Positions 158-58,407 of a DNA stretch of 64,000 nucleotides are shown here, piece after piece. The translations under genes were made by a program, and so were the position numbers. The notes under the pieces are model-generated. The model did not search any database and was not told where the DNA came from. It saw only the letters and a program-made list of their open reading frames with translations. Origin of the DNA: Bacillota bacterium. Its GTDB lineage: Bacteria; Bacillota; Sulfobacillia; JACIYH01. The stretch covers positions 320,575-384,574 of the forward strand of contig JBFLXJ010000023.1 of NCBI GenBank assembly GCA_040757085.1. The letters are read 5' to 3'. How positions within the stretch are numbered: the stretch's first letter is position 1; each line of letters starts with the position of its first letter.

Positions 158-403
158 GTGATCGCGGTGGGCATTCAGTATTTGGATCTGGTGGACGAGG
201 TGTGCCCGGTGCCCCTGTTGCGCATTCAGGAGGCCCTGCGGGCGGCAGGGGCGGGGGACGCGGTGGTGGCGCGGCTCGGCTACGCCCGCTCCGTGCGCAA
301 CGTGATGGAGTGGGCGGAGCGGGAGGGGATCCCGTTCACCGTGCACGAGGTGCGGGGAGGTGCCTGGGAAATCACCCTGCGCAAGGAGCCCCGCGGGGTG
401 TAG
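158..403 (+). CDS. TusA/SirA-family sulfur (or selenium) carrier protein
   Basis: An 81-residue protein beginning GTG 158, with a short AGGGA-like site just upstream. It carries the family motif CPVPLLR around residues 16-22; the first Cys of CPxP is the persulfide-carrying residue in TusA proteins. The length is typical of a stand-alone TusA. It lies between a membrane protein end and a YeeE/YedE gene, a known pairing in which a membrane channel imports thiosulfate or another sulfur or selenium species and the TusA-like protein accepts the sulfur. A selenium role (YedF-like) is possible because the window also encodes tRNA-Sec, but YedF is normally longer. The substrate cannot be decided from sequence. 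Confidence 0.8.
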   Translation: MIAVGIQYLDLVDEVCPVPLLRIQEALRAAGAGDAVVARLGYARSVRNVMEWAEREGIPFTVHEVRGGAWEITLRKEPRGV

Positions 404-48898: not shown

Positions 48899-49134
48899 CA
48901 CCCCATTCCACCGGTCTATGCCCAGAGGTTCGGGGACAGACCCGGTTTTCCTGCTGACCGGGGAGAGGCGGTGCCCTTTGCCATCATGGCAGCGTGGCGG
49001 TGCGCAGCGGGCAGAACTGCGTGCGGACGAGGTGGCAGGAAAGCGACGACGGCGTGGCGTATCCTGCGTGTGAGCGGGTAGTAGGGCCTGGGCAGGACGG
49101 AAGGGCCCGCCATCCAGCACAGGGGGTGTTTTCC

Positions 49135-50298
49135 TTGAACGTCCTGTCCGGCCGCGCTGTTTCCCTGCCTGCTTCCCCCATCCGGGCCATGATGGCGCAG
49201 GCGGCGCGTTTTCCCGACGCCATCCGCCTGGAGATGGGGGAGCCCGATTTCACCACTCCCGAGCCGTATATGGAGGCGGCATTTGCTGCCGCCAGGGGGG
49301 GCGCCACCCACTACACGCCGACGGTGGGCATCCCGGAACTGCGTCGGGCCATCGCCGCCAGGCTACAGGCTGATTACGGGCTCGACGTGGACCCCGAGCG
49401 CGAGATAATGGTCAGCGTGGGGACCGTGGGGGCCCTGGGTGTGGCATGCCTGGCGGTGATCCAGCCCGGCGACGAGGTGCTCGTGCCCGATCCCGGCTGG
49501 CCTGTATACCGCTCCCAGATCGCCCTGGCGGGCGGGGTAGTTGTTTCCGTTCCCCTTCGCGAGGAAAACGCCTTTCATATGCAGCCGGAGGATGTGGAGG
49601 CCCGCATCACCCCGCGCACCCGCGTGCTGATCATCAACTCGCCCCACAATCCCACCGGGGCAGTGTTGAGCGAGGCAGAGCTGCGCGGGATTGCGGAGGT
49701 GGCATACCGGCACGGCCTGGTCGTCATCTCCGACGAGGTGTACGAGAAGCTGCTGTACGATGGCAGGAGGCACTTCCCCCTGGCATCCATCCCGGAGATC
49801 CGGCCCCAGGTCATAACCGTGTCCGGGGTTTCCAAGACCTATGCCATGACGGGATGGCGCCTCGGGTATGCTTACGCCACCGCCGAACTCATTTCCGCCA
49901 TGGCCCGCATCCAGGAGTGTCTGGCATCCTGCCCCTCTTCCGTGTCGCAGCATGCTGCCCTGGCTGCGATCGGCGGCGACCAGGAGCCGGTGGCGAGGAT
50001 GTGGGAACAATATGAACGCCGCCGGCGTTTCCTGGTGGAAGGTTTGAACCGCCTGCCGGGAATCTCGTGTCTTATGCCCGAAGGCGCCTTCTATGCCTTC
50101 CCCAGTGTGAAGGCGCTGGGTCGCCCCTCGGCGCACCTGGCCCAGGACCTGCTGGTGCGGGGCGGCGTGGTTACGGTGCCCGGTTCCGGATTCGGCGAGG
50201 GCGGAGAAGGATACCTGCGGCTCAGTTACGCCACCTCGCTGGAAGCCCTGCGGGAAGCCCTGCACCGCATGGAGAAGTTCCTCGCCGCGCGTCACTGA
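49135..50298 (+). CDS. Class I/II PLP aminotransferase
   Basis: A 387-residue aspartate-aminotransferase-fold enzyme: MGEPDFTTPE near the N-terminus, THYTPTVGIPELRRAIA, NSPHNPTGAVLSE, SDEVYEKLLYDG and the PLP Lys in SGVSKTYAMTGWRLGY; the C-terminal RLSYATS carries the carboxylate-binding Arg. Substrate is likely aspartate, alanine or an aromatic acid; it cannot be fixed from sequence. TTG 49135 follows AGGGGGTG at proper spacing. Divergent from the dehydrogenase; the 236-base gap shows no convincing promoter. Confidence 0.9.
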   Translation: MNVLSGRAVSLPASPIRAMMAQAARFPDAIRLEMGEPDFTTPEPYMEAAFAAARGGATHYTPTVGIPELRRAIAARLQADYGLDVDPEREIMVSVGTVGALGVACLAVIQPGDEVLVPDPGWPVYRSQIALAGGVVVSVPLREENAFHMQPEDVEARITPRTRVLIINSPHNPTGAVLSEAELRGIAEVAYRHGLVVISDEVYEKLLYDGRRHFPLASIPEIRPQVITVSGVSKTYAMTGWRLGYAYATAELISAMARIQECLASCPSSVSQHAALAAIGGDQEPVARMWEQYERRRRFLVEGLNRLPGISCLMPEGAFYAFPSVKALGRPSAHLAQDLLVRGGVVTVPGSGFGEGGEGYLRLSYATSLEALREALHRMEKFLAARH

Positions 50299-51364: not shown

Positions 51365-52531
51365 ATGGTGAGGCGTAAGATTGCGACGGCGTGCGCACTG
51401 TTGCTGGTTGCTTCGCTGCTACTTACCGTGGGTTGCGCACAGAAGCCTGAGGAAAAGCCCAGTGCGCAGCAGCCCCAGGAGAAGGTTATCAGGATCGGCA
51501 TGATTGCTCCCCTGACGGGCGACGTGAAGACCTTCGGGGAGTCCACCAAGAACGGGTTCCTGCTGGCGCTGGAAGAGGCGGGGAACCAGGTGGCCGGGTT
51601 CAAGATCGAGCCGGTGATGGGCGACGATCGCAACGACCCGACGGAAGCGGTGAACGTGGCCACCAAGCTGTGCACGCAGGACAAAGTGAAGGCCATCGTG
51701 GGATCCGTGGCGTCCAAGTGCTCGATTCCGGTTTCGGAGGTTTGCGAAGCCAACAAGGTAGTGCAGATCAGCCCCACTTCCACCAACCCGCGCGTGACCG
51801 TAGACCTGGGACGGCGCAAGACTTACGTTTTCCGGGCCTGCTTCATCGATCCGTTCCAGGGGACGGTGGGGGCGAAGTTTGCCCTGGACAACCTCAAGGC
51901 CAAGACCGCGGCCGTGCTGTATGACCAGGGCAACGACTACGTGATCGGGCTGGCCAGCTATTTCAGGGATGCCTTCAAGGCGGGCGGCGGCGAAATCGTG
52001 GCCTGGGAGGCGTACACCAAAGACGACGTAGACTTCTCTGCCGTGCTCACCAAGATCGCCAAGCTGAAGCCAGACATCCTGTACCTGCCGGACTATTACA
52101 ACATGGTCAGCCTGATCGGCAAGCAGGCCCGCCAGAAGGGCATCAAAGCCGTGTTCCTCGGTGGGGATGGTTGGGACTCCTCCGACCTCGACTTTGAAAC
52201 CATGGAGGGTGGCTACTTCACCAACCACTACTCGCCCGAAGACCCGCGGCCGGAAGTGAAGGCGTGGGTGGAAAAGTACCAGAAGAAGTACGGTTCCACC
52301 CCCGATGCGCTGGCCACGCTGGCATATGACGCCACCGTCCTCCTGTTGAAGGCGATCGAGAAGGCTGGCAGCGACGATCCCACCAAGATCCGGGATGCCC
52401 TCCAGTCGCTGGAGATGGACACGGTGAGCGGTCGGATTTCATTTGACAAAGACGGCAACCCGGTGAAGCCCGCCGTCATCCTGCAGATCTCCGGCGGCAA
52501 GCAGAAGTACGTGGCCACCGTGCGGCCGTAG
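51365..52531 (+). CDS. livK: Branched-chain amino acid ABC transporter, substrate-binding lipoprotein
   Basis: A 388-residue binding protein with a lipoprotein signal (lipobox LTVGC, Cys 24) followed by a Gln/Pro/Glu linker and a type I periplasmic-binding fold (IRIGMIAPLTGDVKTFGESTKNG, SPTSTNPRVT, AYDATVLLLKAIEKAG). It captures leucine/isoleucine/valine or a related ligand outside the membrane and is the first gene of livKHMGF. A strong hairpin after its stop probably gives it a higher mRNA level than the membrane genes. ATG 51365 follows GAAGGGGGAA. Confidence 0.92.
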   Translation: MVRRKIATACALLLVASLLLTVGCAQKPEEKPSAQQPQEKVIRIGMIAPLTGDVKTFGESTKNGFLLALEEAGNQVAGFKIEPVMGDDRNDPTEAVNVATKLCTQDKVKAIVGSVASKCSIPVSEVCEANKVVQISPTSTNPRVTVDLGRRKTYVFRACFIDPFQGTVGAKFALDNLKAKTAAVLYDQGNDYVIGLASYFRDAFKAGGGEIVAWEAYTKDDVDFSAVLTKIAKLKPDILYLPDYYNMVSLIGKQARQKGIKAVFLGGDGWDSSDLDFETMEGGYFTNHYSPEDPRPEVKAWVEKYQKKYGSTPDALATLAYDATVLLLKAIEKAGSDDPTKIRDALQSLEMDTVSGRISFDKDGNPVKPAVILQISGGKQKYVATVRP

Positions 52532-52542
52532 AGTACGCTGTG

Positions 52543-52574
52543 CCAGGGAGGGGCGGCCAACCGCCCCTCCCTGG
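52543..52574 (+). terminator. Perfect 14-bp hairpin between livK and livH (attenuator or mRNA-stabilising stem)
   Basis: CCAGGGAGGGGCGG (52543-52556) pairs perfectly with CCGCCCCTCCCTGG (52561-52574) around CCAA. No T-run follows (AATCCCGG), so it is unlikely to end all transcription; partial termination or protection of the livK 3' end is more likely. Confidence 0.75.
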
Positions 52575-52602
52575 AATCCCGGTGGGTTGGAGGCGAAGCC
52601 TG

Positions 52603-53487
52603 GTGACACTCGTTCTGGAGCAGATTTTCAACGGACTGCAACTGGGATTCGTGTACGCCCTCATTGCCCTCGGGTACACCATGGTATACGGCATCATCAG
52701 ACTGATAAACTTCGCCCACGGTGACGTGTTCATGGTGGGGGCGTACCTGGGCGTGCTCGGCTACACCGCGTGGGGGTTGCCCTTCCCTCTGGCTATTGTG
52801 GTGGCCATGGTCCTGTGCGCTGTCCTGGGGGTTTCCATCGAGAGGGTGGCTTACCGCCCCCTCCGTTACGCCCCTCGCATCGCAGCGCTCATCAGTGCCA
52901 TCGGCGTCTCACTGTTTCTTGAATACTTTTGCTCGCTCAAGTTTGTTTTCGGTCCCAACTACCGCGTGGTATCCCGCCCTTTCGAGGTGGTTAACTTCAC
53001 GGTGGGGGGAGCAAACCTTTCCAACATACAGATCGTGGTGGCGGTCGTGGTCGTGGTGCTCCTGGCTTTGTTACAGTACATGCTTTTTCACACCAAGGTC
53101 GGCAAGGCCATGCGCGCGGTTTCCTATGACCACGACGCTGCCCGCCTGATGGGGATAAACGTGGACAGCATCATCTCGGTCACCTTCGCCATTGGGTCCG
53201 CGCTGGCGGCTGCCGGGGGTGTGTTGTACGCAGTGGCCTACCCGCGGATCTGGCCCTTCCTGGGTATCATGCCGGGTTTGAAAGCGTTTACCGCGGCTGT
53301 CCTGGGCGGAATCGGCATCGTACCGGGGGCGGTCCTGGGTGCCATCATAATGGGGCAGGTGGATGTTCTGTCTGCAGCGTTTATTTCTTCCCAGTTTCGC
53401 GACGCCATTGCTTTTTCGGTCCTGATCCTCGTGTTGCTGGTGAGGCCCACGGGTGTTCTGGGCTCGCGGCAGCCAGAGAAGGTGTAG
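52603..53487 (+). CDS. livH: Branched-chain amino acid ABC transporter permease
   Basis: A 294-residue permease with about eight transmembrane helices. The LivH opening (EQIFNGLQLGFVYALIALGYT then INFAHGD) and GPNYRVVSRPFEV are typical, and GIVPGAVLGAIIMGQ near the end is the usual cytoplasmic coupling region. It pairs with LivM to form the membrane channel. Start GTG 52603 with GGAGG upstream. Confidence 0.92.
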   Translation: MTLVLEQIFNGLQLGFVYALIALGYTMVYGIIRLINFAHGDVFMVGAYLGVLGYTAWGLPFPLAIVVAMVLCAVLGVSIERVAYRPLRYAPRIAALISAIGVSLFLEYFCSLKFVFGPNYRVVSRPFEVVNFTVGGANLSNIQIVVAVVVVVLLALLQYMLFHTKVGKAMRAVSYDHDAARLMGINVDSIISVTFAIGSALAAAGGVLYAVAYPRIWPFLGIMPGLKAFTAAVLGGIGIVPGAVLGAIIMGQVDVLSAAFISSQFRDAIAFSVLILVLLVRPTGVLGSRQPEKV

Positions 53488-53490
53488 CAG

Positions 53491-54537
53491 GTGGGGGGTA
53501 CGATTCGTTTGGGGCGGGGAAAGCGCTGGCTGGAGCACCCCTGGTTGTTCCCTGTGGTGGCGTTGGTGTTTTACCTGGTGGTGCGGTTCCTGGCCTCGGG
53601 TGGGTTCATAAATGACTACTGGCAGTTGGTGCTGGATCAGTCCCTCATCATTACCATCGGATCCCTGGGGCTCAGTCTGATTTACGGTTTCTGCGGTCAG
53701 TTCTCTCTCGGGCACGCGGCATTTTACGGCATCGGTGCGTACACGGCCGGGTTGATAGGCAAGCTTTACGGTCATGGCAACCTGGCCTGGTTCGTGCTGG
53801 CCCTGCTCCTGGGGGCGGTGGCTGCGGGTCTGGTGGCGCTCCTGGTTGGCTTACCCATCCTGCGCCTGAGGTCCGATTACCTCGGGATTGCCACCCTGGG
53901 GTTTGGCATCATTGTAAAAGTGCTCATGGACAACTCCAACAAGTTGATCCCGGCCACCGGCGGGGCCACCGGGATGACGGGTACGCCCAGAATCGCCAAT
54001 TTCACGTGGATTTTCGCTGTGGCTGTCCTTGTCATCCTTCTGGTGCGAAACCTCGTCTCTTCCCGTTACGGGCGAGCCTGGGTCGCCATCCGGGAAGACG
54101 AGGTGGCGGCGGACGCCATGGGCATTAACACGACGCGGTACAAGACCATAGCATTTGCCGTAGGCTGCGCCCTGGCGGGCCTGGCCGGGGGACTGTACGC
54201 TCACCGTTACCCTTTCGTGCATCCGTCCAGCTTTGATTTCCTGAAGTCGATCGACTTTCTTATTGTCGTTGTGCTGGGCGGACTGGGGAGTTTCAGTGGC
54301 ACCATAGCCACCGCCATCGCGTGGGTGTTCCTCCTGGAAGGTCTGCGAGGCGTGCTCGGGCAGGCATTCGTGGACTGGCGCGGCGTAGTGTACGCTCTCA
54401 TCCTTGTAGTCGTCATCATCCTGCGGCCGCGCGGGCTGCTGGGGGGCAGGGAATGGGGCGCCCTGGTACCCAGGCTGTCGCTCTTGGGGGAGCCGTTTGC
54501 CGGGAAGGAGGAGCACCGTGCCCGAGTTGGAGGTTAA
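53491..54537 (+). CDS. livM: Branched-chain amino acid ABC transporter permease
   Basis: A 348-residue permease with about nine helices, with FSLGHAAFYGIGAYTAGL and LRLRSDYLGIATLGFG as in LivM, and AVGCALAGLAGGLYAHRY later. It begins GTG 53491, three bases after the livH stop, and its 3' end overlaps livG by 20 bases. The C-terminal 30 residues form a charged cytoplasmic tail. Confidence 0.92.
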   Translation: MGGTIRLGRGKRWLEHPWLFPVVALVFYLVVRFLASGGFINDYWQLVLDQSLIITIGSLGLSLIYGFCGQFSLGHAAFYGIGAYTAGLIGKLYGHGNLAWFVLALLLGAVAAGLVALLVGLPILRLRSDYLGIATLGFGIIVKVLMDNSNKLIPATGGATGMTGTPRIANFTWIFAVAVLVILLVRNLVSSRYGRAWVAIREDEVAADAMGINTTRYKTIAFAVGCALAGLAGGLYAHRYPFVHPSSFDFLKSIDFLIVVVLGGLGSFSGTIATAIAWVFLLEGLRGVLGQAFVDWRGVVYALILVVVIILRPRGLLGGREWGALVPRLSLLGEPFAGKEEHRARVGG

Positions 54538-55288
54538 GGGGTTGACCAAGCTGTTCGGGGGGCTTAAGGCCGTATCGGACTTTCACCTCACCCTGGAGCA
54601 GGGGGAACTGGTCGGTCTGATCGGGCCGAACGGGGCGGGTAAGACCACCGTTTTCAACCTCGTGACCGGCATGATCTCCCCCACCGCTGGGGAGGTCCGT
54701 TTCCGGGGTGAAAGCATCGTAGGGCTGGCACCGTACCGCATATTCCAGAAGGGGATCGCCAGGACATTCCAAAACATCCGGCTTTTCAAGGAGGCGTCGG
54801 TGCTGGATAATGTCCTGGTGGCCCTTGATTCCGGTCTCGGGTATTCGTTTTTCGGGGCGGCGCTTCGCATGCGCGGGATGATGTCCCGGGAACTGAAGGC
54901 CAGGTCGCAGGCGATGGAGATCCTGGAGGTGCTCGGGTTGAGCCGCAGGGCCGATGAGGTAGCCAAGAACCTTCCTTACGGCGACCAGAGGCGGCTGGAG
55001 ATAGCGCGGGCCCTGGCTGGGCGCCCCCGTCTGCTCCTGCTGGATGAGCCTGCCGCCGGCATGAACCCGGCCGAGGTGCGCGACATGGTGCGGCTAATCG
55101 GAGATCTCAAGGAGCGGTTTGACCTCACCGTCCTGCTCATCGAGCACCAGATGGGCGTGGTGATGAACCTGTGCCCGAGAATTGTGGTAATGGATTTCGG
55201 AGAGATCATCGCAGAAGGGACGCCGGCGGAAATCCAGCAGAATCCGAGGGTGCTGGAAGCCTACCTGGGGAAGGGGGCCGTGGCCTGA
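54518..55288 (+). CDS. livG: Branched-chain amino acid ABC transporter ATPase (LivG)
   Basis: A 256-residue ATPase with Walker A GPNGAGKTT, the LivG-type signature LPYGDQRRLEIARAL in place of LSGGQ, Walker B LLLLDEPAAGMNP and switch EHQMGVV. GTG 54518 follows GGAAGGAGGAG. It works with LivF on the LivHM channel. Its stop overlaps the livF start (TGATG). Confidence 0.93.
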   Translation: MPELEVKGLTKLFGGLKAVSDFHLTLEQGELVGLIGPNGAGKTTVFNLVTGMISPTAGEVRFRGESIVGLAPYRIFQKGIARTFQNIRLFKEASVLDNVLVALDSGLGYSFFGAALRMRGMMSRELKARSQAMEILEVLGLSRRADEVAKNLPYGDQRRLEIARALAGRPRLLLLDEPAAGMNPAEVRDMVRLIGDLKERFDLTVLLIEHQMGVVMNLCPRIVVMDFGEIIAEGTPAEIQQNPRVLEAYLGKGAVA

Positions 55289-56010
55289 TGAGTCTGGAGG
55301 TCAAAGACCTGAACGTGTTCTACGGAGCCATCCAGGCGCTTCACGGCATCTCTTTTCGGGTTGAGGAAGGCGAGATAGTCACCCTGATAGGCGCTAACGG
55401 AGCCGGAAAGTCCACCACCCTGCGGGTCATCTCCGGGCTGGTACGACCTCGCTCCGGTCAGGTGATCTACGGGGGAGTCGACATCACCCGGATGCGGGCG
55501 CACCAGATCGTGCGAGCCGGTATCAGCCAGTGTCCGGAGGGGCGGAAGATATTCGCCAACCTCACCGTGCTGGAAAACCTGGAGATGGGAGCGTACACAC
55601 GCTCCGACCGCAAGGAGATTCAGCAAAGCCTGGAGCGTGTTTTCCATCACTTCCCCAGGTTGAAGGAGCGCATCAAGCAGGTGGCGGGAACCCTTTCCGG
55701 AGGTGAGCAGCAGATGCTCGCCATGGGGCGGGCCCTGATGGCAAGGCCCCGCCTGCTCCTGCTCGATGAACCTTCCATGGGGCTTTCTCCCATCCTGGTC
55801 CAGGAGATATTCTCCATCATCACAGACATCAACCGGGACGGCACCACCGTCCTGCTGGTAGAGCAGAACGCCGCCATGGCTCTTTCGGTTGCGACGCGAG
55901 GCTATGTGTTGGAGACCGGCCGCATAGTTATGGAGGGGCGGGCTGCCGATTTACGAGCGGACCCCCGTGTGCGTGCGGCCTACCTGGGGGACGTGGTGGC
56001 GGCTTCCTGA
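55288..56010 (+). CDS. livF: Branched-chain amino acid ABC transporter ATPase (LivF)
   Basis: A 240-residue ATPase with Walker A GANGAGKST, signature LSGGEQQMLAMGRAL, Walker B LLLLDEPSMGLSP and EQNAAMAL as switch region. ATG 55288 overlaps the livG stop; the frame that reaches back to 55171 is not used. It ends the operon; the next gene is convergent, 53 bases away. Confidence 0.93.
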   Translation: MSLEVKDLNVFYGAIQALHGISFRVEEGEIVTLIGANGAGKSTTLRVISGLVRPRSGQVIYGGVDITRMRAHQIVRAGISQCPEGRKIFANLTVLENLEMGAYTRSDRKEIQQSLERVFHHFPRLKERIKQVAGTLSGGEQQMLAMGRALMARPRLLLLDEPSMGLSPILVQEIFSIITDINRDGTTVLLVEQNAAMALSVATRGYVLETGRIVMEGRAADLRADPRVRAAYLGDVVAAS

Positions 56011-56063: not shown

Positions 56064-57326
56064 TCAGCGGCGGTGGAGTTTGCGGGCAGCCACGAAGGCC
56101 AGGCCCTTCTCGGTCAGGGCGCGGGCCGTGCGGTTCACGGCCTCGTGCTTGTCGAGGTAGTTCCGTTCCAGGCGGGCCATGTCGCCCGAGGCCAGGATCT
56201 CTTCTTTGGTTCGGAAATAGTCCAGGATGTCAGAGGGGTGTTCTCGGGTTGCCTCCACCTCGGGATCCCCACCCTCGTGCTTGGCGGAGATGTTGGGCAC
56301 TCGGGAGGCGATTTCGACCAGTTCCTCCCGGCGGTTGTAAGGCTGGCGGACGATACTCTTGTACGTCTCGGTGATGTGGTGCTCGATGCGGACCTGATCC
56401 TCCAGTCCCAGTTTCCTCCTGATAAGGGAGCACATTTCCAGGGTATGGTTGTTCGCTGAGTTGCTCAGGTTGAGGCCGGCCAGCGGCGTGGAGCCGTCCT
56501 CGCGGGCGAAGAGGCGGGCCGCCATAAGGGTCCAGAGGACAAAGAAGGGATTGTCGTGGCCTGTGAAGACCGAGATCTTGAAGCTGATGTCGATCCCTAG
56601 CCTGTGCAGGATGTAACCCAGGAGGATGGTCCCGAAGTTCACGTTGAGCACCTGATTGATGCCGTACTGGGTGTAGTAATAGAGGTACTCGTCGATCCAC
56701 TGCAGGGGATGCTCGTTGGGCTGGCCCACTCCGCCGAAGTACCCGGTGATCGTCTCCGGCCCGCCCAGGTGGACGTTAGAGCCGTCCGTCCCCTTGGTGT
56801 CCAGGGTTTCCACGTAGGTGGCCCCTATGATCTGCATGGCTGCTGCCACCGCCAGGATGTCCCCCTGGTCGGCCTCCTGTTCCCGCATTTTGCGCACCCG
56901 GATGTACCTTCCCGGCATGATCTCCTGGCGGTCGATGGCCTGCTTTGCCTCGGTGATCAGCCAGGGGAAGTACTGGAGGGCGCTGATCTCCAGGGTAACG
57001 GCCTTCCCCTCGTCGAAGTACATGGTGTCAGCCCTCTCGCCCAGGATCTTGCGCCGGTACTGGGAGATGCTGATAAAAGCCCCCCTGTCCCTTTCGGAGA
57101 TGAGCCATTCCAGGTCCTTGAGGTAGGGAGAGTCCATGTTCCGTAGGCGCCCCATGATGTGGGGGAGGCGCCGGGCCTCGCGGGCGCGGGCGTTGATTTC
57201 TTCGGGAGTGCCGTACTTGGCCACCACGCGGAGCACCTCGTTGACGAGGGGGTTATCGGGGTCAAGGAGAAACCGGTTGAGTTCCTCGATCGCGGAGGCA
57301 TCCAGTCTCAAGCGATCCCGTAGCAT
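56064..57326 (-). CDS. Conserved-looking soluble protein of unknown family, co-oriented with panB
   Basis: A 420-residue protein with no signal peptide or membrane helix. I recognise no family. The order of strands and helices, with Gly/Asn/His-rich turns such as DTKGTDGSNVHLGGPE, FTGHDNPFF, LNLSNSANNHT, RIEHHITET and SAKHEGGDPEVEA, looks like a (beta/alpha)8 enzyme; the His, Asp and Glu residues in these turns could bind metal or substrate. It starts ATG 57326, 44 bases after the panB stop on the same strand, so it is probably co-transcribed. A link to pantothenate or CoA metabolism is only positional. Confidence 0.55.
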   Translation of the reverse strand: MLRDRLRLDASAIEELNRFLLDPDNPLVNEVLRVVAKYGTPEEINARAREARRLPHIMGRLRNMDSPYLKDLEWLISERDRGAFISISQYRRKILGERADTMYFDEGKAVTLEISALQYFPWLITEAKQAIDRQEIMPGRYIRVRKMREQEADQGDILAVAAAMQIIGATYVETLDTKGTDGSNVHLGGPETITGYFGGVGQPNEHPLQWIDEYLYYYTQYGINQVLNVNFGTILLGYILHRLGIDISFKISVFTGHDNPFFVLWTLMAARLFAREDGSTPLAGLNLSNSANNHTLEMCSLIRRKLGLEDQVRIEHHITETYKSIVRQPYNRREELVEIASRVPNISAKHEGGDPEVEATREHPSDILDYFRTKEEILASGDMARLERNYLDKHEAVNRTARALTEKGLAFVAARKLHRR

Positions 57327-57370: not shown

Positions 57371-58261
57371 TTAGCAACCACCCGGCGCCGAGCCCGCAGT
57401 CTCCCTGAGGCGTTCTTTCACCAGGGCTTCCAGGCGGGCTGCCTCGCCCGGCTTCATGCCGTAGCAGTGCTCGGGGGCGGGGAAGCGCCCGCCGGCCACG
57501 TCGTCCATGTACTCGCGGAACGCCTTGAGGATGATCTCGTTGAGGCTGGTGTACTTCTTCACGAACCTGGGGGTGAATGCCTCAAAGAACCCCAGCATGT
57601 CATGGACGATGAGCAGTTGCCCGTCGCAATGGGGTCCGGCGCCGATGCCGATAATGGGGATGGATGCCCGTTCGGTGATGATCTTGCCCACCTCGGGGGG
57701 CACCGCCTCCAGCAGGATGGCAAAGGCCCCCGCTTCTTCAATGATCCTGGCATCTTCGATTACCCGCAAAGCAGTGTCCACGTCCCGGGCCTGCGCCTTG
57801 AAACCTCCCAACTGCGCGATGGACTGCGGGGTCAGGCCCAGGTGTCCCATGACGGGGATGGTGGCCCTGGTGAGGGCTTCCACCACGTCGGCCACGTTCC
57901 GCCCGCCTTCCAGCTTGACGGCGTCGCATCCGGCCTCAGCCATGAACCGTCCCGCGTTGCGGATTGCTTCCTCTTTACTGACCTGGTAGGACATGTAGGG
58001 CATGTCACCGATGAGGAAGGCCCCCGGTGCTCCCCTGCGCACGGCCTGGGCATGGACCACCATGACGTCCATGGTGGCGGGGAGGGTACTGTCGTACCCC
58101 AACACGGTCATGGCCAGCGAATCGCCCACCAGGATGATATCCACGCCCGCCTTTTCCTCCAGCAGGGCAGTGGGGTAGTCGTAACAGGTGAGCATGGTGA
58201 TCTTCTCGCCACGGGCCTTCTTCTGATACAGGTACGGAATCGTGACTTTCTCTCTGGCCAA
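57371..58261 (-). CDS. panB: 3-methyl-2-oxobutanoate (ketopantoate) hydroxymethyltransferase
   Basis: A 296-residue PanB, first step of pantothenate synthesis, adding a hydroxymethyl group from methylene-tetrahydrofolate to 2-oxoisovalerate. Motifs: MLTCYDYPTA, GVDIILVGDSLAMTVLGY, GDMPYMSY, KLEGG, GHLGLTPQS, LLEAVPPEV, GIGAGPHCDGQLLIVHDMLG. The start is TTG 58261, with GGGG about eight bases before; an open frame extends upstream to 58390 without support. Its 2-oxoisovalerate substrate also derives from valine, which livKHMGF could import. panC and panD are absent here. Confidence 0.93.
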   Translation of the reverse strand: MAREKVTIPYLYQKKARGEKITMLTCYDYPTALLEEKAGVDIILVGDSLAMTVLGYDSTLPATMDVMVVHAQAVRRGAPGAFLIGDMPYMSYQVSKEEAIRNAGRFMAEAGCDAVKLEGGRNVADVVEALTRATIPVMGHLGLTPQSIAQLGGFKAQARDVDTALRVIEDARIIEEAGAFAILLEAVPPEVGKIITERASIPIIGIGAGPHCDGQLLIVHDMLGFFEAFTPRFVKKYTSLNEIILKAFREYMDDVAGGRFPAPEHCYGMKPGEAARLEALVKERLRETAGSAPGGC

Positions 58262-58407
58262 CCTGCATTCCCCTTTGCCGCGCCGGTCGGTTTGCCAGAG
58301 TATGGTTCGCCAGTGCCGGCCCTTTTCCTGCTGCTTCAGGTGTGTCCCTCCGAGGCCGATATTCCTTGTGTGGGGCCGGTTACCCGGCACTGCGCGTGGG
58401 GGGTGAG

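Follow-up and report, generated by a model that had tools for sequence, protein, structure and literature searches.

A conserved barrel protein family of bacteria and Asgard archaea, encoded in bacteria beside a paralogue of PanB

A protein encoded next to a panB-type gene in a 64,000-nucleotide stretch of Bacillota contig JBFLXJ010000023.1 (the whole stretch is hereafter called the window) belongs to an undescribed, strongly conserved family, here named T, of bacteria and Asgard archaea. The protein is modelled as a barrel and is remotely homologous to a second family, T'. Its genes are associated in bacteria with a separate clade of PanB paralogues (PanB2), and in most of the Asgard archaea a gene carrying a fused domain of formaldehyde-activating enzyme (Fae) stands beside T. 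We tentatively read T as a U32-like barrel enzyme that would work together with PanB2 in 2-oxo acid and C1 transfer, mainly in amino-acid catabolism. The features discussed are listed in Table 1.

Table 1. Positions of T, its modelled parts and its neighbours in the window.
Feature	Position	Strand	Basis
T (420 aa, ATG start)	56064..57326, reading 57326->56064	minus	ORF list
N-terminal helices of T	residues 1-105		AlphaFold2 model
Barrel strands of T	residues 110-115, 140-143, 170-173, 225-228, 248-251, 282-286, 313-319, 346-350		AlphaFold2 model
PanB2, paralogue of 3-methyl-2-oxobutanoate hydroxymethyltransferase, putative transcription partner of T	58390..57371	minus	PF02548 E 1e-112; TIGR00222 E 9.6e-98
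Branched-chain-amino-acid (BCAA)-type ABC transporter (substrate-binding protein, two permeases, two ATPases)	51365..56010	plus, convergent with T	names from reading the translations
Class I/II aminotransferase, by similarity	48994..50298	plus	family named from the member at locus L027

The T family and its predicted fold

The open reading frame described in the first-pass annotation was confirmed and assigned to the minus strand, which that annotation had left unstated; the plus-strand frame over the same interval is interrupted by stops. The reported spacing of 44 bases was also right, with panB lying upstream of T on the same strand across a gap of 44 bp. T is single-copy in its own genome. 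The remark that no family is evident still holds, as Pfam, NCBIfam and PHROGs gave no match at E ≤ 10, a phmmer search of PDB sequences gave a best E of 0.64, which is a chance value, and a profile of 44 T homologues gave no match to PDB sequences.

T is encoded in 13 of 61 relatives and, at E < 1e-210, in 15 of 398 genomes of the phylum, the window's own included. A set of 32 T loci of GTDB species comes from Bacillota, Deltaproteobacteria, Chloroflexi, Synergistota, Atribacteria, Spirochaetota and Asgard archaea. The total came to 58 genomes, 43 bacterial and 15 Asgard, with one duplicate taken out and the window's genome counted once. The homologues are 57–86% identical to the window protein, and the mean column identity over 44 sequences is 72%. 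Many positions of this alignment are invariant His, Asn, Asp, Gly, Lys or Glu, which bears out the pattern of His, Asn, Asp and Gly that had been noted in the single sequence. Since homologues occur in many genomes and the columns are highly conserved with many invariant residues, T is not a chance reading frame. When the T profile was run on the 398 phylum genomes, the next match after the strong ones was at E 0.027, which marks T as a narrow family standing on its own. From its scattered occurrence we suspect transfer between lineages. No T was found in viral contigs. One weak profile match (L127) was dropped, its context holding nothing PanB-like, and two others (L128 and L129) were left out. 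The homologue at L114 in genome G092 has one in-frame TGA at the family's conserved Tyr position, which was taken as a broken gene or an assembly error, and its sequence was left unmended.

The AlphaFold2 model of T (mean pLDDT 91.1, pTM 0.90) is a TIM barrel with eight strands. Residues 183–196 form the only poorly modelled stretch, yet they are among the most conserved, and may be a substrate lid. Judged from the alternation of residues along the strands, Glu113, Lys250, Ser252 and Lys349 should face the barrel interior. The earlier suggestion of an enzyme looks sound given the confident barrel model and the invariant polar residues at its strand ends.

In structure searches glutamate mutase, CutC, a designed barrel, class II aldolases, MTHFR and the U32 protein 5d88 (Z 12.5, 190 aligned, rmsd 3.3) all tied with one another; with so many ties among unrelated barrels, the structure search by itself names no superfamily for T, just a TIM barrel. 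Glutamate mutase E aligned over both the N-terminal helices and the barrel (6h9e_B, Z 11.8, rmsd 4.5, 254 aligned; 1cb7_B, Z 11.4, 260 aligned), as would fit T as the large subunit of an adenosylcobalamin mutase, but unrelated barrels reach Z 11–12 equally, and no B12-binding partner was noticed in the lists of T neighbours. This reading, which we hold to be extremely improbable, was rejected on these ties and on the profile comparison, in which hhalign against 17 glutamate-mutase-type sequences gave 0.1%. Divergent glutamate-mutase-E-like proteins are encoded at L101, L102 and L103, within one family of the phylum; their matches to PF06368 (E 1e-57 to 1e-65) cover no more than its C-terminal three quarters.

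PanB2 and the pantothenate pathway

The window's PanB2 scores 326.9 bits against the equivalog cut-off of 207.55 bits for TIGR00222 and retains D90, S91, D129, K159, E161, H183 and E228 (numbering of the protein itself). The conserved Asp, Ser, Lys, Glu and His of PanB, which we take to be its catalytic residues and which bind metal and substrate, are present in all 36 PanB2 copies adjoining T or T'. Eight sites distinguish PanB2 from panC-linked PanB, one of them the residue that precedes the second Asp, which is Gly instead of Ala (GDM rather than ADM); other differences are Leu or Ile replacing Val.

PanB2 adjoins T in 27 of the 43 bacterial T genomes, with one gene between them in L014. 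The panB gene comes first in 14 of these pairs and T in 13; the twenty-seventh pair, at L035, was found by tblastn and has panB first. Apart from L035, the gap is at most 250 bp in 24 of 26 pairs. Such tight pairing regardless of order would also suit a non-catalytic T that holds or regulates PanB2, an explanation that we regard as very improbable in view of the invariant polar residues in the modelled barrel and of the occurrence of T in Asgard genomes that yielded no protein of the PanB2 clade.

Trees of 46, 75 and 112 PanB proteins, built by quick searches, rooted at the midpoint and supported by SH-aLRT values, put every T-adjacent PanB that they included in one clade (SH-aLRT 98 or 99). 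In the largest tree this PanB2 clade takes 62 of the 112 rows (SH-aLRT 98) and includes all 26 placed T-adjacent PanBs and none of the 10 panC-linked ones. Short or weak matches were kept off the trees (G001:C6, G054:C199, G029:C138, G060:C51, G011:C18 and the G000:C20 fragment), as were extra PanBs, three of G092 among them; the last tree omits L198 because of its high divergence, and L201 was never used. On these tree positions, PanB2 is a paralogue clade apart from the pantothenate PanB. Genome G138, of 4.3 Mb, carries six PanB-family genes, two of them beside T or T'.

A member of the PanB2 clade is present in 40 of the 43 bacterial T genomes; G092 was not placed, and L017 and L043 are without PanB. 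Thirteen of the 16 genomes in which the two genes are not adjacent hold PanB2 elsewhere (G040, G011, G052, G017, G029, G021, L015, L016, L018, L019, L020, L022 and L028). The proposed check for co-occurrence with panB came out positively, since among the 61 relatives PanB2 was found in 13 of 13 T genomes and in 10 of 48 others (Fisher p 1.7e-7, an inexact value, the genomes being related). Two of these ten, G016 and G027, have T' beside PanB2; in the other eight neither T nor T' was found, T' having been sought in some of them only. The PanB of 11 of the 15 Asgard T genomes is of archaeal type and lies outside the PanB2 clade. The eight relatives and the Asgard genomes count against the joint role of T and PanB2 proposed below.

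The first-pass annotation had proposed that T fills a step of pantothenate or CoA synthesis. A step performed with PanB is suggested by a neighbour that passes the pantothenate equivalog cut-off, and an analogue of PanC is imaginable where panC is missing, as it is in 8 of the 13 T genomes among the relatives. The other five have panC; co-location or co-occurrence with panC, as looked for in a pantothenate gene, was not found. Moreover, in G001 and G041 panC has a PanB of its own next to it and PanB2 adjoins T, the panC-linked PanBs fall outside the PanB2 clade, and the partners of T and T' sit within transporter, hydroxyectoine, homoserine and AOR (aldehyde:ferredoxin oxidoreductase) clusters. 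In Pfam and NCBIfam (E ≤ 10) T resembled neither PanC, PanD and PanE nor their archaeal analogues, and a search for panE found the PanE-type domain ApbA_C in 7 of the 13 genomes. The separate clade and the missing panC argue against the proposal, and a pantothenate role for T and PanB2 is unlikely. It retains some ground in G017 and G029, where PanB2 is the only full-length PanB of a genome that also has panC and may make ketopantoate. What survives of the annotation is an enzyme-like protein tied to a panB-type gene and, from its alternative suggestion of 2-oxoisovalerate, a 2-oxo acid as the likely common currency; the pantothenate step is not supported.

In the window's own genome a truncated PanB remnant lies on another contig beside a PanE-like gene (L171, contig C20, 3386-4654). 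It is downstream of what we presume to be a fragment of an insertion element that apparently cuts PanB, and is followed by a LarA-like gene and a transporter; these genes were named by reading.

T' and the barrels of the U32 family

A weak match to the T profile (E 0.043) beside another PanB2, in G399, led to T', a second family of 312 aa present in 31 of the 398 genomes. The remote homology search that had been recommended for T has a result: hhalign of T against T' scored 78.9% over 230 columns across the barrel (E 1.6e-5, where hhalign E-values refer to a single pair and not to a database), and at 92.9% in the reverse order. With subgroups of T' taken alone the values were 40.6% to 86.4%. 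Twenty positions that are at least 85% conserved in both T and T' are identical, and include Glu113, Arg140, Asp176, Lys250, Ser252, Asn289, Arg303, Arg332 and Lys349. Comparisons of T and T' with PanB, DapA-Fae, aminotransferase, AOR and glutamate mutase stayed at or below 3.5%, except for one T' subgroup against PanB at 21.3%.

PanB is encoded in the same cluster as T' in 10 of 20 loci. The T-linked and T'-linked PanB2s are interleaved on the PanB tree, which indicates that T and T' exchange as partners of PanB2. Several T' genes (L130:1156-2091 (+), L296 and L293) lie in clusters that contain EutB, RidA, DoeA-like and DoeB2-like genes. EutB scored 430 bits against a cut-off of 413 for NF005680, a GDH-family dehydrogenase is present at T' loci as well, and the DoeA-like and DoeB2-like hydrolases were below their cut-offs; the combination suggests a hydroxyectoine-type catabolism. 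A PanB-free T' subgroup (L307, L308 and L311) has neighbours that read as fumarase-type and malic-enzyme-like genes, and the L308 locus also has a gene like sulfolactate or ureidoglycolate dehydrogenase.

The E. coli K-12 genes served as reference for U32. T' aligned with UbiU, UbiV, RlhA and TrhP at 81.2% to 90.1% (E 1.6e-6 at 90.1%), and 13 of 26 T' members matched PF01136 at E ≤ 1 (best 2e-7); three of the ten scanned were clearly above the cut-off of 22.4 bits, with one at 22.6. T shares with U32 the (beta/alpha)8 barrel, in its AlphaFold2 model, and a Lys-x-Glu in the last strand, seen by eye as KHEGG in T, KIEPG in T' and KIEGR in U32. Compared directly with the E. coli U32 proteins, T gave 0.2% by hhalign, so its relation to U32 holds through T' only. 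By descent T is a distant relative of the U32-like barrels.

That T is an oxygen-independent oxidase or hydroxylase, or a peptidase, of U32 proper is very unlikely, even though it reaches U32 through T' and T' members match PF01136. The U32 oxidases need four cysteines, whose motif CX6CX15CX3C binds an Fe-S cluster according to PMC11574389, whereas no column with Cys in at least 50% of the sequences is found in T or T'. None of the 44 T sequences matched PF01136 at E ≤ 1, and T also differs from U32 in its genomic role beside PanB2. Since PF01136 and the cysteine motif were both sought and not found, T is not filed as a U32 member. Among close relatives, no U32 protein was found at E ≤ 1e-10.

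Gene neighbourhoods and a proposed role

In 11 of the 15 Asgard genomes a DapA-type aldolase gene follows T directly. A C-terminal Fae domain (TIGR03126, best E 3.3e-58) was found in 11 of the 13 members of the DapA-type cluster, all 11 of them Asgard; the two Fae-free members, judged from their lengths, are the bacterial L014 and L040. The fusion is exemplified by L023:7300-8784 (+) and occurs at 10 other Asgard loci, directly after T. It looks like a formaldehyde-releasing 2-oxo-acid aldolase that feeds H4MPT; T itself differs from it in having no profile similarity (hhalign 0.2%). At the remaining four Asgard loci the genes after T encode an aminotransferase, a homoserine dehydrogenase (NF004912, 439.6 bits, cut-off 373) and AOR.

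The contexts of T vary by lineage. In bacteria AOR is found at L014 and L015, a methionine gamma-lyase at L142 (its cluster has a further member at L149), M20 deacylases next to TRAP transporters, named by reading, at L131 and L142, a SoxB-like multi-subunit dehydrogenase at L140, L141 and L143, and a D-glutamate-cyclase-like gene at L134, L135 and L138. In L040 (6765-7379) and L015 (8137-8763) a protein of about 205 aa is encoded between T and an aldehyde dehydrogenase or AOR gene, beside a ferredoxin-domain protein; its L040 copy has no Pfam match. The substrate-binding protein of the window's BCAA-type transporter has members of the same cluster near T in L014, L015, L040 and L046, and BLAST-cluster mates of the window's aminotransferase occur within the stretches around other T loci; for both genes the link to T is suggestive only. 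To judge from the neighbours in other phyla, amino acids or amino-acid-like compounds are broken down with transfer of C1, and with contexts so varied the substrate need not be the same in all lineages.

DapA-type aldolases act, like PanB, on the C3-C4 bond of a 4-hydroxy-2-oxo acid, which either enzyme forms or cleaves, and Fae converts formaldehyde to methylene-H4MPT, as the C1 unit of PanB goes to methylene-THF. From these two parallels the common denominator would be a 2-oxo acid with a C1 unit at C4. One candidate is 4-hydroxy-2-oxobutanoate, which is the transamination product of homoserine. We infer T to be a catalyst on such a 2-oxo acid pathway, with the direction, substrate and lysine chemistry proposed here. 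PanB2 probably moves the C1 unit between THF and a 2-oxo acid with a hydroxy or other substituent at C4, giving a shorter 2-oxo acid and methylene-THF, and T would make or remove the 4-substituted acid. It may act via Glu113, Lys250, Asn289 and Lys349, and the simplest intermediate would be a Schiff base or an enol(ate); the basis for the Schiff base is the two conserved lysines only. The main task of the module would be to break down amino acids and compounds like them in anaerobes, and in Asgard archaea the pyruvate-aldolase/Fae fusion would take over the C1 step and feed methylene-H4MPT.

The PanB reaction is reversible, and PanB2 could instead add the C1 unit of methylene-THF to a 2-oxo acid that T then converts, for C1 assimilation or a branched product. 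Homoserine dehydrogenase beside T at four Asgard loci would be consistent with this direction, as would the engineered homoserine cycle, in which, according to PMC7918591, pyruvate and formaldehyde give 4-hydroxy-2-oxobutanoate with YfaU and an aminotransferase leads on to homoserine. The many uptake and degradative neighbours tell against it (TRAP and BCAA-type transporters, M20 deacylase, methionine gamma-lyase, SoxB-like dehydrogenase, EutB). With transporters and deaminating enzymes nearby, release of C1 in amino-acid catabolism is likelier than its assimilation, and the synthetic direction is possible but doubtful. The enzymes of the homoserine cycle match the neighbours of T in the Asgard loci; the cycle is engineered, whereas the module proposed here is natural, employs PanB2 or aldolase-Fae and probably runs in the opposite direction.

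More speculatively, and with a rather low probability, T and T' could be the missing enzymes of a natural fermentation route common to bacteria and Asgard archaea, from C4 amino acids to pyruvate and C1. Homoserine, aspartate semialdehyde, diaminobutyrate from ectoine or hydroxyectoine, and perhaps methionine would enter it. The gamma-substituted C4 amino acid would become a 4-substituted 2-oxobutanoate, to be split into pyruvate and a C1 unit that leaves as methylene-THF via PanB2 or as methylene-H4MPT via aldolase-Fae. Such a route would be the natural counterpart, in reverse, of the engineered homoserine cycle, and might amount to a pathway of a categorically new kind.

Searches of the open-access PMC literature listed no paper on T, on T' or on the fusion of aldolase and Fae. 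Conservation at no less than 57% identity across Bacillota, Spirochaetota and Asgard archaea in a family without a Pfam, NCBIfam or PDB entry is rare. The PanB2 clade suggests that many genes annotated as the panB of pantothenate synthesis belong to another pathway, which would correct the automatic annotation of this vitamin pathway. If the reading in terms of C1 transfer is true, it would add a way by which amino acids feed methylene-THF or methylene-H4MPT in anaerobes and in relatives of the eukaryotes, and a metabolic role for U32-like barrels that are free of cysteine.
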